A stretch of 64,000 nucleotides of DNA, from NCBI GenBank assembly GCA_040743155.1, contig JBFLJU010000001.1, positions 1,364,001 through 1,428,000 of the forward strand. Direction: 5' to 3'. The number at the start of each line of letters is the position of its first letter. The stretch's first letter is position 1. The notes under the pieces are model-generated. The model was given only the letters and a program-made list of their open reading frames with translations. It was not told the origin of the DNA and made no database searches. The position numbers and the translations under genes are program-made. The DNA comes from Cycloclasticus sp. GTDB lineage: Bacteria > Pseudomonadota > Gammaproteobacteria > Methylococcales > Cycloclasticaceae. This document shows, one piece after another, positions 53,724 through 60,312 of this stretch.

Positions 53724-56700
53724 TTAACTAACCGCCATTTTAGCGGCTTCTTCCAAATCCACCGCAACTAATCTGGACACACCCGGTTCTTTCATCGTAA
53801 CCCCTGCTAATTGATTCGCCATTTCCATGGTGACTTTATTATGCGTAATCAAGATCATTTGAACATTCTCCGACATTTCCTTAACCAGCTCTCCAAAACG
53901 CCCTACATTAGCTTCATCAAGCGGTGCATCCACTTCATCCAACATGCAAAATGGAGAGGGGTTTAAATCAAAAATTGAGAACACCAGCGCAACCGCCGTT
54001 AATGCTTTCTCACCGCCCGATAATAAATGAATTGAGCTGTTACGTTTTCCCGGTGGTCTAGCCATGACCGTAACGCCTGTTTCAAGCAAATCCTCACCCG
54101 TTTGCTGCAAATAAGCATGTCCACCACCAAACAACTTTGGAAATCGTTTTTCAAAACCAGCGTTCACTTTATCAAAAGTTTGCTTGAACAGTGTACGACT
54201 TTCTTTATCAATTTTAGCAATCGCAGTATCCAGCGTTCGCAATGATTCGATCAAATCTAATTGCTGACTATCGAGGTATTTCTTTCGTTCCGACTGCGCC
54301 TCGTACTCTTCAATCGCCGTCAGGTTAATTAAGCCTAGTTTATTAATTTTTTCGGCCAAGTGCGTGACCTGTTCTTGCCATTGGCTATCATCCGCATCGT
54401 CCGGAATATTAGTCAGCGTTTCAACTAACTCAACACCCGATTCTTGCAGCTGTTCCACCAACGTTTGTTTTCGCACTAAAACTTCTTGGTGAGCAATCTT
54501 CGCCGTCGAGGTATCTTCCCTAGCCTTTTCAACTTTTAGCTCGGCTTGGTGACGCCTTGTTTCCGACCCTCTAATTAATTCTTCAAGCGACTCAGTTCTC
54601 GTACGCATTTCTACTAATCGATCTTCAACCAACACCCGGTCTTTTAACAAACCATCCAACGCTAACTTCTGTTCATCTAATGGCTTATCACTAACACTTA
54701 ACTCAACTTGTAACATGACAACTTTATCGTCCGCCTGCGTTATGCGCTCCCCAACGACTTGCAAATGTTGATTCGTCAGCGCTTGAGATGAGCGTTGCGA
54801 CTCGATTTTCATCAACAAGTTATGCGTCAAGTCACGAGAACTTTGTATATCTCGCCTTACTTCGTCAAGCAATCGTTTTTTTACAGAACGCTCTTGCTGC
54901 AAAGCTTCACGTTGCGTTTCTATTTGCGTCGATTGCTCAATAGCCGCATCCAAGGTCTGCTTACTTTCTAGTAGGCTTGCTTGGTCTATAGCTTGATGTT
55001 CGCTTATTTGCTTCATATCAATTTCTACCTGCAATGACCTTTGCTGCGCCGATTCAAGTGTTGATCGCTTCTCATTTATTTGCATCGCTAACTGAGAAAT
55101 TTGCTTCACCGCTGCACTCTCTTGTTGACGCAATTCACGGCCCTGCTTCTCCAACTCCGATAATTCGAGCCTAGCCTGTGCTAACGCTTCTTCTTTATGT
55201 GAGATAGCTGACAGTAGTTTTTGCAGTTGTTGTGTTAACTCTTTTTTCTCTTTCTCCAATACTAATGCACTACTCTTGTTGTCATCGCGTTTAAAACAAA
55301 CACTATCGGCATGCAGCCAAACGCCATCCTTTGTCATCACAGATTCATGCTCATCTAACACGCTAATCAATGTTTTTGCTTGCTCAATCGTTTCTGCAAA
55401 ATGGACGTTCTTCAACAACACCATAGCTGGTATATCTGACGTTATTAAGCTAGCTAATGAAGTTTTACTGACCGCAACTTGGGGCTGACTATGTGCATTA
55501 AACAGCGTTAACTCACCCACCGGATAATGTGTACCTTCCGTTAATATAGCCGCTATATCTTCCACGCAAACCGCCTGCAATCTTGTCCCCAACACTGTTT
55601 CGACTGCCTTTTCCCAACCTGCCACCACATCAATTTTTTCGATGAGTTTAGAGGCCGTTAACAAGCCCTTCTCTTCAAGCCACTGATTAACTGACTCATG
55701 GGAGTCACCTAAATTAGCTTGCTGTAAAACAACGATAGACTCCAGCCGACCTGCCAGCCGTGAATACTCTGCGCGCACGTTGGCTAATGCTTCACTTTCA
55801 TCGTGAATTAATTGCTGCGAAGTCGAAACCCCTAGTTGGTTTTGTTGCCATAACGCTTGATTTCTTTGATGCTGTGAATCAAGCGTATCATGCTGCTGTT
55901 GCAAGCCAATCAAATCGGTTTCACGCAATATTGTTTGTAACCTTTGTTGTTCATTTTGCGCAGCATACAGTCGCTGTGTCGATTGCAGCAACTGTTTATC
56001 TAACTGGCTTATTTTTGTTTTTTCAACGTCAATTTTTCTTTTTGGTTCGGCCACTTGATAGGTAAATTCATCCCACGATTTTTGCCAATCCATCATCGCT
56101 TGCTCAACCTCAACCAAAGATTGAGCCGCGTTACTTTCTTGCTCCCTCACTTCGGTTAAAGCCAACTCACTGCTCTTAATAGATGTATTGGATTGGGCTA
56201 TTTTCCCCTCACCTTCAGCAAGCTCTTGTTGAGATAGCTTTAGCATTGTTTTATAACGCTCCAGCTCCGTTTGTTGTTGTTGCTGTAAATTTTGCTGCTG
56301 CTGCAATACTTGCTCAACTTTCGCAATGTCAGAGCCTTTCGAATAGAACTCTCCTTGTATCTCGCTTAAGCTTGCTAATTGAACATTGTGCTGTTCTCGT
56401 TGTTGCTCAATATTCATCTCCAACTCACGTTGGCCTGCTAGAGCTTCTTCAACTTTAAGCTCTAACGATTTTATTGCTTTATGCTGACCTTCATCTTGCT
56501 CATTTAACGTCTGCCAACGCAATGCTAATAACTGCGCTTTAAGCTGACGCTCTTCGGTTTTCAAACCCTTATAACGCTCTGCCGTACTGGCTTGGCGTTT
56601 TAGATGACGACACTGCTTATCTATCTCTTCACATAGATCGGCGATACGCTCTAAATTTTCCCGAGTTCGACGCATCCTATTTTCAGTATCACGGCGACGC

Positions 56701-57224
56701 TCTTTGTACTTTGATATACCGGCTGCTTCTTCAAGGAACACCCGAAGCTCATCCGGTTTTGCCTCTACTAACCGTGAAATAGTGCCTTGCTCAATAATCG
56801 CATAACTACGAGGACCAAGGCCTGTGCCTAAAAAAAGATCTGTAATATCTTTACGGCGGCATCGCGTGCCATTTAAAAAATAAACCGACTGCCCTTCTCT
56901 ATTAACTTGCCGTTTTAGAGAAATTTGGCGATAGCCTGCAAACTCCCCTGTAATAGTCGCGTCAGCGTTATCAAAAATGAGCTCTACAAATGCCTGGCCA
57001 ACGGGTTTACGGGTCGTTGAGCCATTAAAAATAACATCAGCCATTTGATCGCCCCGCAGGTGTTTGGCCGAGCTTTCACCCAACACCCACCTAACAGCAT
57101 CAATCACATTCGATTTACCACAACCATTTGGCCCAACAATACAAACCAAATCACTCGAAAAAGGAATGGTCGTCGGATCAACGAATGATTTAAAACCGGA
57201 TAGCTTTATTTTTTCCAAACGCAT
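53724..57224 (-). CDS. smc: Chromosome partition protein SMC
   Basis: Condensin ATPase that compacts and separates chromosomes. Walker A GPNGCGKSNVIDAVRWVLG (about 32-50), two long coiled coils (about 170-500 and 650-1000), a hinge near 505-630 (VVAGWEKAVETVLGTRLQAV), the ABC signature LSGGEKALTAVAL and Walker B CMLDEVDAPLDEANV are in order. 1166 residues. Coding by smc, rather than mukB, sets it apart from enteric bacteria and Vibrio. Confidence 0.97.
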   Translation of the reverse strand: MRLEKIKLSGFKSFVDPTTIPFSSDLVCIVGPNGCGKSNVIDAVRWVLGESSAKHLRGDQMADVIFNGSTTRKPVGQAFVELIFDNADATITGEFAGYRQISLKRQVNREGQSVYFLNGTRCRRKDITDLFLGTGLGPRSYAIIEQGTISRLVEAKPDELRVFLEEAAGISKYKERRRDTENRMRRTRENLERIADLCEEIDKQCRHLKRQASTAERYKGLKTEERQLKAQLLALRWQTLNEQDEGQHKAIKSLELKVEEALAGQRELEMNIEQQREQHNVQLASLSEIQGEFYSKGSDIAKVEQVLQQQQNLQQQQQTELERYKTMLKLSQQELAEGEGKIAQSNTSIKSSELALTEVREQESNAAQSLVEVEQAMMDWQKSWDEFTYQVAEPKRKIDVEKTKISQLDKQLLQSTQRLYAAQNEQQRLQTILRETDLIGLQQQHDTLDSQHQRNQALWQQNQLGVSTSQQLIHDESEALANVRAEYSRLAGRLESIVVLQQANLGDSHESVNQWLEEKGLLTASKLIEKIDVVAGWEKAVETVLGTRLQAVCVEDIAAILTEGTHYPVGELTLFNAHSQPQVAVSKTSLASLITSDIPAMVLLKNVHFAETIEQAKTLISVLDEHESVMTKDGVWLHADSVCFKRDDNKSSALVLEKEKKELTQQLQKLLSAISHKEEALAQARLELSELEKQGRELRQQESAAVKQISQLAMQINEKRSTLESAQQRSLQVEIDMKQISEHQAIDQASLLESKQTLDAAIEQSTQIETQREALQQERSVKKRLLDEVRRDIQSSRDLTHNLLMKIESQRSSQALTNQHLQVVGERITQADDKVVMLQVELSVSDKPLDEQKLALDGLLKDRVLVEDRLVEMRTRTESLEELIRGSETRRHQAELKVEKAREDTSTAKIAHQEVLVRKQTLVEQLQESGVELVETLTNIPDDADDSQWQEQVTHLAEKINKLGLINLTAIEEYEAQSERKKYLDSQQLDLIESLRTLDTAIAKIDKESRTLFKQTFDKVNAGFEKRFPKLFGGGHAYLQQTGEDLLETGVTVMARPPGKRNSSIHLLSGGEKALTAVALVFSIFDLNPSPFCMLDEVDAPLDEANVGRFGELVKEMSENVQMILITHNKVTMEMANQLAGVTMKEPGVSRLVAVDLEEAAKMAVS

Positions 57225-57357
57225 CGGCTAACGATACATGATTGCGCTTTTACCATAAAGAATACTGATGAATTTATTCGTTAAAAAGAGTGATTAACAC
57301 CCTTCGTTTTATATTCATTGTAAAATGCACTTTTAAGACAACTTTAACGATAATTTA

Positions 57358-57747
57358 ATGAGTACACAGCCAAACACAGGTTTAGAAACCTTCCCAAACC
57401 CAAACATTGAACGCGACTACACGATTCGCATCGATACTCCCGAGTTTACCTGCTTATGCCCAAAAACAGGTCAGCCTGATTTCGCAACACTTACGCTTGA
57501 ATACGTCCCTAATGAACGTTGTGTTGAGTTAAAGTCGTTCAAACTATATATCTGGTCTTACCGCGATAAAGGCGCATTCCATGAAGCAGTCACTAATTCA
57601 ATATTAGAAGATCTAGTAAAAGCTTGTGAGCCGCGCTTTATGCGTCTATCTGCCGAGTTTAATGTTCGAGGCGGTGTTTATACGACTGTTGTTGCAGAAC
57701 ATAAATCGGATAACTGGACACCCAGCATCCCTGTTCAATTACCCTAG
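57358..57747 (+). CDS. queF: NADPH-dependent 7-cyano-7-deazaguanine reductase
   Basis: Reduces preQ0 to preQ1 in queuosine synthesis. This is the short, single-domain form (129 residues). The nucleophilic cysteine is in [17 protein letters not shown] (about 30-46), and the family motif [20 protein letters not shown] (about 58-77) is complete. It is divergent from smc, with a 133-bp gap. I saw no preQ1 riboswitch in that gap. Confidence 0.95.
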
Positions 57748-57804
57748 AAAACTCTCCGACATTCTTTCGAATTAAAGTCATTCAGTTTCAATTCATCGCT
57801 AAGT

Positions 57805-57854
57805 CTTATCCTTTAACTGCACGTTAACAAAACTGCATTGCAGTTAAGGATAAG
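57805..57854 (+). promoter_or_regulatory. Long hairpin masking the ribosome binding site of the His-rich gene
   Basis: CTTATCCTTTAACTGCA (57805-57821) pairs with TGCAGTTAAGGATAAG (57839-57854): 16 base pairs with one bulged T and a 17-base loop. The ribosome binding site AAGGA (57846-57850) is wholly inside the stem, and the stem ends at the first ATG. Such a layout blocks translation unless the stem is opened. It could also be a DNA operator, since AACTGCA recurs in the loop. Confidence 0.75.
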
Positions 57855-58286
57855 ATGATGAATATATTAAACACAGTTACGAAAGTTCTTTTTTGTTCCT
57901 TGCTACTTATTAGCACCGCTTCGTTAGCCGAGCGAAGACATTCTGATCACCGTGGCTATTCAGACCATCAAGCTAACGCGACACACCAGCAACCTCAAAA
58001 TCACCAACGGCACAACTCCGCTATGTACAGTCGGCGTCCTCACGCTTACGTCCATAATCAACAGTGGCGTGCGAGAAAACATTGGAACAAACACCATAAC
58101 AAGTACCAATATCGCGGTCATTTCAACCGTCACCACAGCAAATATTCTTACCGGCCTAGACATCGGGCGTACAACAACTACAGGCCCAGACATTCAAGCT
58201 ATTACTACGGAGCCCGGAGACTTAATAGGGCCTTAAGGCACTACAACCATCATAACCATGGCTTCAGGGTGCACTTATCGTTTTAA
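57855..58286 (+). CDS. Secreted histidine-, arginine- and tyrosine-rich protein
   Basis: Not recognised. 143 residues from the first ATG (57855); the second ATG (57858) has better spacing, 7 bp, to AAGGA. A clear signal peptide ends in STASLA (cleavage after about residue 25). By my count the mature part (about 118 residues) holds 21 His, 20 Arg and 13 Tyr but only three acidic residues, so it is strongly basic. There is an internal repeat (HHNKYQYRGH, then HHSKYSYRPRH) and YRPRH occurs twice; no cysteine in the mature part. It ends in GFRVHLSF. The make-up suggests metal, heme or polyanion binding outside the inner membrane, perhaps like RcnB-type proteins, but there is no real homology visible. 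It has its own terminator and a masked ribosome binding site. Confidence 0.8.
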   Translation: MMNILNTVTKVLFCSLLLISTASLAERRHSDHRGYSDHQANATHQQPQNHQRHNSAMYSRRPHAYVHNQQWRARKHWNKHHNKYQYRGHFNRHHSKYSYRPRHRAYNNYRPRHSSYYYGARRLNRALRHYNHHNHGFRVHLSF

Positions 58287-58320
58287 CTGCAAGATTGAAT
58301 TGAAGGTTCTTTTCCTCCCT

Positions 58321-58375
58321 TGTGAGATTTGTTCTCACATACTCAAAGGCGGCCACATGGGCCGCCTTCTTTTTA
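58321..58375 (+). terminator. Tandem hairpins and terminator after the His-rich gene
   Basis: A perfect hairpin TGTGAGA/TCTCACA (58321-58339) is followed by a 9-bp GC-rich stem AAGGCGGCC/GGCCGCCTT (58346-58368) and CTTTTT. The second is a rho-independent terminator for the plus strand. The role of the first stem is unclear. Confidence 0.8.
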
Positions 58376-58404
58376 CATCCAAATCAGGGCTGACAGCCCA
58401 TTTT

Positions 58405-60312
58405 TTACAACAGTGATTGCAACAACTTATTTAAACGGTGCACAAATGTTGCAGGGTCTTCCAATTGACCGCCTTCACTCAATAAAGCCTGTTCAAATAA
58501 CAAATGTGACAAATCCGCAAAACGCTCATCGTCTGTTTCTGATTTTAAACGTTGAATAAGCGCATGATCGGCGTTGACCTCAAATGTTGGCAGGCTTGCC
58601 GGCATATCCTGACCAGCCGCTTTCATGATGCGTTCCATATGTGCGCCCATTTCATGCTCATCTGCCACTAAACAAGCCGGAGAATCGGTTAAACGAGAGC
58701 TCACGCGCACCTCTTTCACCTTGCCTTCCAGAGTCGTTTTGATTTGTTCGAGCACACTATTCAGCGACTCGTCTTCATTCTTATCGTCAGCCTTTTTATC
58801 CGCATCATCTTCTTTATTACCTGCGTCAAGGTTGAGATCACCTTTTGCCACAGACTGTAAAGACTTGCCATCAAATTCAGGCATATGCTGTACCAACCAC
58901 TCATCAACATGATCGGTTAATAACAGCACTTCGATACCTTTCTTTTTAAAGACTTCAAGGTGCGGGCTATTTTTAATCGTACCGTACGCTCCACCCGTTA
59001 GATAATAAATCTTATCTTGCCCTTCTTGCATATTCTCAAGATAAGATGTCAATGTTAGGGTTTGCTTTCCATCGGTTTTAGTTGACGCAAAACGCAACAA
59101 TTTAGCTATGCGGTCTTTATTTTTGAAGTCCTCAATAGGGCCTTCTTTTAATACAGCGCCAAACTCTGCCCACAGTGTGTCAAATTTCTCAGGGTGGTTT
59201 TTAGACAAACCTTCGATTAAGGACAATACCTTTTTAACAGCGCCCGCTTTGAGTAAATCAATTTGCTTACTTTGTTGCAGCAATTCACGCGAAACGTTTA
59301 ATGGCAGACTATCTGAGTCAATGATGCCTTTAACAAAACGTAAATAACGCGGCATAAGCTCACCACCTTCCATGATAAAGGTACGTTTTACGTACAGTTT
59401 TACGCCGCTTGTCGCTTCTCTATCCCACATATCGAACGGTGCTTTCGAAGGCAGGTATAGCAGTAACGTATACTCATTAGTCCCTTCCACTTTACTGTGT
59501 GTATAAGCTAATGGGTCTTGATAGTCATTTGATGTTTGCTTGTAGAAGTCGTTGTAATCGTCTTCTTTCAGTTCATTTTTAGCTTTTGCCCATAATGCTG
59601 AACTGCTATTAACCGTGATATCGTCCGGCTCATCTTCTTTTTCTTCATCCTTATTCTCATTTTTCATCACAATGGGAATGTCCAGATGCTCAGAGAACTT
59701 ATGAATGATGGCTTGTAAACGGTAACTTTCTAAAAACTCGTCTTCCCCCTCTTTCAGGTGCAAGATAACATCTGTGCCGCGCGCTACTTTTTCAAGCGTC
59801 TCAATGGTGTACTCACCTTCACCTGACGATTCCCACTTAACGCCAGTTGCCTTACCTTCACCGGCTTTACGCGTTACTACGGTGACCTTGTCTGCAACGA
59901 TGAATCCAGAATAAAAACCCACGCCGAATTGGCCAATCATCTGGCTATCTTTACTCTCGTCACCGGTTAGTGATTCAAAAAACTTTTTAGTACCTGAATG
60001 AGCAATCGTACCAATATTCTTTTTAACTTCATCAGCATTCATGCCAATGCCATTATCTGAAATCGTCAGCGTACGCGCTTCTTTATCCACAGCTAAACGT
60101 ATTTTAAGCTCGCCATCACCTTCATAAAGGCCTTCGTTTGAAAGTGCAGAAAAACGCAGCTTATCCGCCGCATCAGAAGCATTTGAAACTAACTCACGTA
60201 AAAAAATCTCTTTATTGCTATAAAGAGAGTGTATGACCAACTCTAAAACTTGTTTAGTTTCTGCCTCAAACCCCAGTGTTTGTTTTTCATTCTTCTCTAT
60301 TGTTTCGCTCAT
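58405..60312 (-). CDS. htpG: Chaperone HtpG (Hsp90)
   Basis: ATP-dependent cytosolic chaperone. The N-terminal ATPase domain has NASDAADKLRFSAL (about 44-57), DNGIGMN, GTIAHSGTKKFFESL and GQFGVGFYSGFIVADKV; the middle domain holds the catalytic Arg in LPLNVSRELLQQ; the C-terminal dimerisation domain ends in LNKLLQSLL. 635 residues, with an acidic/Lys-rich insert (ENKDEEKEDEPDD) at the usual N-M linker site and another near 500. A sigma-32 promoter precedes it. Confidence 0.97.
   Translation of the reverse strand: MSETIEKNEKQTLGFEAETKQVLELVIHSLYSNKEIFLRELVSNASDAADKLRFSALSNEGLYEGDGELKIRLAVDKEARTLTISDNGIGMNADEVKKNIGTIAHSGTKKFFESLTGDESKDSQMIGQFGVGFYSGFIVADKVTVVTRKAGEGKATGVKWESSGEGEYTIETLEKVARGTDVILHLKEGEDEFLESYRLQAIIHKFSEHLDIPIVMKNENKDEEKEDEPDDITVNSSSALWAKAKNELKEDDYNDFYKQTSNDYQDPLAYTHSKVEGTNEYTLLLYLPSKAPFDMWDREATSGVKLYVKRTFIMEGGELMPRYLRFVKGIIDSDSLPLNVSRELLQQSKQIDLLKAGAVKKVLSLIEGLSKNHPEKFDTLWAEFGAVLKEGPIEDFKNKDRIAKLLRFASTKTDGKQTLTLTSYLENMQEGQDKIYYLTGGAYGTIKNSPHLEVFKKKGIEVLLLTDHVDEWLVQHMPEFDGKSLQSVAKGDLNLDAGNKEDDADKKADDKNEDESLNSVLEQIKTTLEGKVKEVRVSSRLTDSPACLVADEHEMGAHMERIMKAAGQDMPASLPTFEVNADHALIQRLKSETDDERFADLSHLLFEQALLSEGGQLEDPATFVHRLNKLLQSLL

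Follow-up and report, generated by a model that had tools for sequence, protein, structure and literature searches.

The window analysed in this work, a stretch of 64,000 nucleotides, belongs to a Cycloclasticus genome of 2.56 Mb in a single contig. Bacteria of this genus are marine hydrocarbon degraders, and database records also place mussel and sponge symbionts in it. The gene order at the locus is queF, a leader, the gene of a His-rich secreted protein and a convergent htpG; no paper on this locus was found among the open-access papers searched. The features, in window coordinates, are the following.

57358–57747 (+): queF, the upstream neighbour, encoding preQ1 synthase (QueF-II; NCBIfam TIGR03139, 2.1e-51)
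57780–57797 (+): conserved unpaired block ATTCAGTTTCAATTCATC, the proposed activator/−35 part, with 13 of 18 positions invariant in 15 rigid modules
57803–57821 (+): 5′ arm of the long stem, or lock, which pairs with 57839–57856 with one bulged base; in 15 of 16 leaders its TTATCCT core is fully paired (7 of 7)
57807–57812 (+): putative −10 box TATCCT inside the 5′ arm, proposed, like the expected start at about 57818–57822, from the fixed distance to the block
57831–57845 (+): P2, a small hairpin AACTGC-AUU-GCAGUU just 5′ of AAGGA, which competes with the upper half of the lock
57839–57856 (+): 3′ arm of the lock, from RNA folding, containing the Shine-Dalgarno sequence AAGGA (57846–57850)
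57855–58286 (+): open reading frame of the His/Arg/Tyr-rich protein, 143 aa, with the probable start codon at 57858
57855–57929 (+): signal peptide, residues 1–25, ending SLA (hydrophobic stretch, with A25 invariant in 15 aligned proteins; cleavage site by eye)
58254–58283 (+): conserved C-terminal tail (NHGFRVHLSF in the window, often NPGLNVYLRF), whose last residue is Phe in 14 of the 15 listed proteins and Leu in one
58322–58338 (+): 3′ UTR hairpin GTGAGA...TCTCAC, seen by eye in 12 of 15 listed loci
58346–58368 (+): terminator-like GGCGGCC...GGCCGCC with a T tract, from a terminator scan

The locus and its secreted protein

The queF gene precedes the leader in all 16 copies analysed, and a QueF search with the window sequence returned, as its 14 best loci, L016–L029 with 93% to 79% identity. 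The end of htpG lies within 900 nt of queF in 8 of 13 loci, the other five having no htpG in that stretch. The first-pass annotation had described the gene as a unit of its own between queF and htpG. Its position and a terminator-like site behind it were borne out, but a separate unit is not shown by the sequence, since a scan of the window's + strand gave no terminator-like site in the interval from queF to the His-rich gene. The real start codon is probably that at 57858, because the homologous ATG follows AGGA by 7 nt in 15 of 16 leaders and by 8 nt in the remaining one.

The 3′ UTR is conserved over 58310–58382, where CCTCCCTTGTGAGA...TCTCAC forms a hairpin, absent in L016, L021 and L023, and is followed by the GGCGGCC terminator. 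A small RNA derived from this 3′ UTR, with an anti-Shine-Dalgarno-like CCTCCC, is possible, as is a terminator shared with htpG. A search of Rfam over 56000–60000 at E values up to 1 gave a single match, to the mmgR/suhB sRNA, which falls in the 3′ UTR and below threshold (22.1 bits against 41, E 0.21). A pairing of the conserved block with its own 3′ UTR, 9 nt by eye in the window, was discarded, as it is lost in L017 and L018. Two other regulators were also set aside: a preQ1 riboswitch, suggested by the neighbouring queF, has no Rfam aptamer match in 56000–60000, and for CsrA control inspection by eye found a single GGA, outside any loop.

The gene encodes a signal peptide followed by about 118 residues with 21 His, 20 Arg, 13 Tyr, three acidic residues and no Cys. 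These counts, given earlier from the window alone, were confirmed, the cut used for the mature part taking in three signal-peptide residues; the repeated units HHxKYxYR and YRPRH were each found twice, as had been reported. Identity to the window protein ranges from 20% to 48% over 14 relatives. What remains constant is the signal peptide, the composition and the C-terminal tail, with 8–29 His and a net charge of +13 to +21 among the 15 listed proteins, none of which has Cys in its mature part (mature parts were cut by a simple rule, and the whole protein was used for L023). In L023 the richness in His is largely gone (8 His in 105 residues), and the block upstream has decayed too. Few parts of the mature protein are as well conserved as the NPGLNVYLRF-like tail, which resembles the terminal signal of outer-membrane proteins.

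Searches with the window protein matched 10 of the 18 genomes of the genus, a profile of ten sequences matched 11, and a profile of 15 proteins found the same 15 genomes as the leader. No Pfam or NCBIfam family scored above its cutoff (the best were DUF7299, 12.2 bits against 27, and HxsA3, 14.1 against 65), and PDB sequences gave no match at E values up to 1. AlphaFold2, run with 15 sequences, returned no confident fold (mean pLDDT 55, pTM 0.23). Outside the genus the profile gave weak matches in G248 (E 2e-4) and G250 (E 2e-6), both left out of the counts because the leader model was matched in neither. The G248 protein is not His-rich, and that of G250, from another family of the order (L161, match 955–1353), is secreted and rich in Arg, Ser and Tyr, but its C-terminal part differs. 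In the window-protein search, G021 and G065, also outside the genus, reached E values of about 0.1.

Judged from these comparisons and from the structure model, the protein is a fast-changing, lineage-specific secreted product of Cycloclasticus without a predicted fold. As to its role, our guess would be that it is disordered after secretion and binds metals or polyanions such as nucleic acids.

Distribution and parts of the leader

A covariance model of the leader, R1, matched 15 of the 18 Cycloclasticus genomes, with one copy in each and two in G007. The model was built on 12 short leaders, so these 12 of the 16 copies match by construction, while the four long ones lie outside it. An order-wide search of 301 genomes, 18 of them from the genus, found the leader in none of the 283 others under stricter filters, by which some weak matches are lost. 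The analyses below use 16 leaders from 15 genomes, namely those of the window, L005, L015–L023 and L025–L029, two copies being from G007. Of the three genomes lacking the leader, two are incomplete, G002 at 73% and G006 at 58%, and have no queF match either. In the third, G016, queF is present with its 3′ end and the downstream part replaced, and the locus seems to have been lost through a mobile element.

At the G016 locus (L165), and also at L024, the 3′ end of queF and the next gene are replaced, and transposase-like frames, recognised by eye, lie just upstream of queF. The second leader and gene copy of G007 (L014/L015, contig C18) comes from a 5-kb contig belonging to that MAG; its coding frame is split, and it may be a strain variant or a pseudogene.

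The conservation of the hairpin in homologues, proposed earlier as a check, was found: 15 of the 18 Cycloclasticus genomes retain the leader with its locked ribosome binding site. On this sequence evidence the leader is a real, conserved, genus-specific regulatory element. In addition, leader and gene order reveal the gene even where the protein has diverged; inspection behind queF located it in G003, G008, G012 and G015, all missed by the ten-sequence protein profile.

The leader has three parts: a rigid module of 33 nt, a variable stretch, and the hairpin P2, which abuts the Shine-Dalgarno sequence. The variable stretch is enlarged by about 50–65 nt, with further hairpins, in L019, L020, L015 and L026. 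Leaders longer by about 50–65 nt with additional hairpins were observed at L003, L004, L015 and L104, and in L004 ATCCC-UUCG-GGGAT replaces P2.

Folding of the RNA of 57800–57870 gave −22.1 kcal/mol (z −6.0), and none of 200 shuffles was equally stable. The first-pass annotation had drawn a 16-bp stem with one bulge that buries AAGGA. The stem, the bulge and the burial of AAGGA (57846–57850) stand, and the count of pairs is corrected to 18; in a longer folding context, TTCATC/GATGAA extends the stem over the start codon. All seven pairs between TTATCCT and AGGATAA are formed in 15 of 16 leaders, one of them being U-G in two of these; in L029, 2 of the 7 core pairs are broken, yet the rigid module is retained. 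The four stem positions below the core are paired in 9–14 of the 16 leaders, with some two-sided changes and many mismatches, and RNAalifold found none of 13 pairs of the long stem changed on both sides. When halves of the stem were swapped between species, 138 of 20,000 swaps were as stable (515 of 20,000 with representatives), a weaker result than for P2 and one in which relatedness is not controlled. Such a lock is uncommon, not unique, because predicted Shine-Dalgarno access is below 0.02 at 4 of the 33 places in the window that fit a simple Shine-Dalgarno–ATG–reading frame pattern, two of the four being this gene counted twice.

The co-variation of P2 is stronger. When the 18 nt before AGGA are folded, a hairpin of 5–6 pairs ending 1 nt before AGGA appears in 14 of 16 leaders, the exceptions being L021, with no hairpin there, and L023, with a weak one of 4 pairs. 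With 26 nt folded it appears in 13 of 16; L020 favours another pairing, and the hairpin of L021 lies further upstream. The sequence of P2 differs wholly between clades (AACTGC/GCAGTT, TACTGC/GCAGTA, ATCCC/GGGAT, TATGCC/GGCATA), and the pairing is kept. Swapping of its halves between species gave no combination as stable in 20,000 with 16 leaders and 2 in 20,000 with 12 representatives, again with relatedness not controlled. The AACTGCA repeat of the loop, in which a possible strand exchange had been seen, is indeed present (57815–57821 and 57831–57837) and forms P2 as the competing hairpin.

The rigid module has the consensus TTCAGyTynnATTCATC-N8-TTATyCT, written out as (A/G)TTCAG(T/C)T(T/C)NNATTCATC, 8 nt and TTAT(C/T)CT, and its spacing is equal in 15 of 16 copies. 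Across the 15 rigid modules no base changes in TTCAG, in ATTCATC, in TTAT or in the final CT, and in the 8-nt spacer the commonest base is found in only 6–13 of the 15. From the block to TTATCCT the distance is 26 nt in 15 of 16 leaders; in L023, where the block has decayed, it is 31. The neighbouring distances vary, from 17 to 81 nt between the queF stop codon and the block (14 measured) and from 33 to 98 nt between TTATCCT and AGGA.

In sequence, the TTATCCT of the 5′ arm looks like a −10 box. The transcription start most likely lies inside the 5′ arm, a case that the first-pass annotation had set against its own reading, because the spacing between this arm and the conserved, promoter-like block before it is constant. 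A sigma-70 scan of both strands of 57230–58450 found no site (shuffles gave 2.5 on average), and the −35 place of the module has no TTGACA-like box; the promoter reading therefore needs a putative activator or sigma factor. The block holds two ATTCA half-sites with a distance of 11 bp between them, the second stopping about 9 bp short of the putative −10, which would fit the layout of OmpR/PhoB-type activator sites. In G000 the block occurs at one place with 0 or 1 mismatch. Over the 18 genomes, at most one mismatch gives 21 places, 15 of them leaders and 6 elsewhere, compared with 4 for a reversed control pattern. The activator is thus without the support of a regulon, as the block is not shared with other genes.

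Candidates for such a regulon were rejected: none of 12 own-genome block matches with 2 mismatches, and none of the three inspected among the six non-leader places (in G003, G005 and G004, at most one mismatch), is followed by TTATCC at the right distance. Downstream of the block-like place in G004 there is, however, a small lipoprotein-like gene.

Operators, too, are commonly laid out as inverted repeats at a likely promoter, and the ACTG core of the upper arm, its first base excepted, is invariant in the 12 aligned short leaders. The palindrome could then act as DNA, the RNA stem being incidental. However, a dimer site would keep its letters and its spacing, whereas P2 keeps its pairing through a complete change of sequence, the stem contains U-G pairs, and the arms lie at distances that differ by up to 65 nt. 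We regard a DNA operator as improbable.

Another alternative is a two-state RNA switch. Transcription would start upstream of the block, and on the full-length leader a ligand, a small RNA, a protein or a translating ribosome would move the 3′ arm from the long stem to P2 and open the Shine-Dalgarno sequence. That the long stem and P2 share one strand in the short leaders, that P2 pairing survives complete sequence change and that the unpaired block is conserved as strongly as the stem all agree with such a switch. On the other hand, P2 alone does not free the Shine-Dalgarno sequence, because the lower stem must open too, and the long leaders L019, L020, L015 and L026 would not form a switch, as P2 and the lower stem use different bases there and do not compete. 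In addition, the exact spacing of 26 nt is more like a promoter than like an RNA, and the only Rfam match is the sub-threshold sRNA of the 3′ UTR. This explanation appears rather unlikely, with a better claim than the operator.

Shine-Dalgarno access and a proposed choice of promoter

Folding of the full leaders at 25 °C predicted the Shine-Dalgarno sequence to be free at 0.000–0.017 in 14 of 16, at 0.111 in L029 and at 0.168 in L015. When the RNA starts 7 nt after TTATCCT, the predicted value rises to 0.504–0.841 in 13 of 16 (0.776 in the window), barely exceeding 0.5 in L019 and L020; L025 reaches 0.495, and the shortened RNA is predicted to stay mostly closed in L023 (0.259) and L026 (0.158). 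RNA shortened to begin 5, 7 or 9 nt behind TTATCCT, and so lacking the 5′ arm, is likewise predicted to have an open Shine-Dalgarno sequence in most leaders, L023 and L026 excepted. Shuffling of the spacer and the 5′ arm raised the median access to 0.15–0.36, and the native value was reached by 0–7 of 100 shuffles in 14 of 16 leaders; in L015 (32 of 100) and L029 (19 of 100) the lock is no better than many shuffles.

The stem had been likened to an RNA thermometer, and melting with warmth would suit both a Shine-Dalgarno sequence paired within a stem as far as the start codon and the neighbourhood of the convergent heat-shock gene htpG. The folding predictions contradict this: for the window leader, access stays at 0.000–0.004 between 4 and 42 °C, and each base of AAGGA is less than 0.12 free even at 65 °C. 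Among the other 15 leaders, access between 4 and 42 °C is at most 0.031 in 13, stays at 0.11 in L029 and falls with warming from 0.21 to 0.11 in L015. The Rfam search of 56000–60000 at E up to 1 also matched no thermometer family, and we give this explanation hardly any credence.

The predicted opening on removal of the 5′ arm (in most leaders, not in L023 and L026) would also be obtained by processing of the type I toxin kind, with an RNase cutting the loop of a long inactive message. In the short leaders this loop shows partial conservation. However, processing leaves the rigid upstream module unexplained, its cleavage site would be hypothetical, and the product is not a small hydrophobic peptide. 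For an antisense RNA of the type I kind, the sigma-70 scan of 57230–58450 gave no promoter on either strand. Little weight is given to processing.

We give about an even chance to a choice of promoter of the kind known from phage T4 gene e and I-TevI, in which read-through from queF is silent and the mRNA from the gene's own promoter is translated. The rigid module, that is, the block and TTATCCT, would be that promoter, probably switched on by an activator on the two ATTCA half-sites, and its −10 region would double as the strand complementary to the Shine-Dalgarno sequence. Read-through RNA from queF would carry the 5′ arm, form the long stem and not be translated. RNA starting about 7 nt behind TTATCCT would lack the 5′ arm, form only P2 and leave the Shine-Dalgarno sequence free. 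As only read-through RNA would carry the locking strand, translation would follow the gene's own promoter.

More tentatively, at somewhat less than even confidence, we propose the full picture: throughout the genus and on the chromosome, one stretch of DNA would serve both as promoter −10 and as anti-Shine-Dalgarno strand, and a co-varying second hairpin would replace the lock in the short message. The point at which the message starts would then decide its translation, keeping an intrinsically disordered, fast-evolving His-rich protein off unless its own activator is on.

Comparison with known systems

RNA thermometers of the fourU, ROSE and prfA types pair the Shine-Dalgarno sequence in a hairpin reaching the start codon. 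The Cycloclasticus leader shares this pairing, but its lock is predicted to be so stable that it would not melt at growth temperatures, and it matches no thermometer family. In type I toxin mRNAs the long RNA is locked and the shortened RNA is translatable, a likeness to the behaviour predicted here; the difference lies in the product, since this locus encodes a secreted, cationic protein with about 118 residues. Histidine-rich secreted metal-binding proteins, in turn, have a signal peptide and a high His content. In contrast to them, the protein of this locus belongs to no Pfam or NCBIfam family above cutoff, is also rich in Arg, Tyr and Asn, and is paired with a leader that is limited to the genus among the genomes searched.

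The nearest likeness is to phage T4. For gene e, the passages cited describe longer early transcripts that form an inhibitory structure and late transcripts without its 5′ portion (PMC3014915), and the I-TevI leader is presented as being of the same design (PMC2988022). As far as these accounts go, the likeness is that a stem buries the Shine-Dalgarno sequence on RNA initiated upstream, and that transcripts of the proposed promoter, whose start we infer in Cycloclasticus, would be without the 5′ arm. Unlike the T4 cases, this is a bacterial chromosomal gene with no tie to a phage late sigma factor, and a second, co-varying hairpin, P2, takes over beside the Shine-Dalgarno sequence. P2 itself is like the hairpin of seg43(25) of Aeromonas phage 25, described in the cited passage as stable and directly upstream of a free ribosome binding site (PMC2988022): both end just before the Shine-Dalgarno sequence and leave it uncovered, whereas that passage mentions no 5′ arm that would lock it. 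Of the readings considered, the likeliest for this leader is a read-through lock like that of T4, embedded in a promoter of a bacterial chromosome. If so, locks that depend on the transcription start, which two reviews describe for phage T4 (PMC3014915, PMC2988022), would also insulate neighbouring bacterial genes, and a rigid promoter module with a −10 box complementary to the next Shine-Dalgarno sequence could serve to recognise them.
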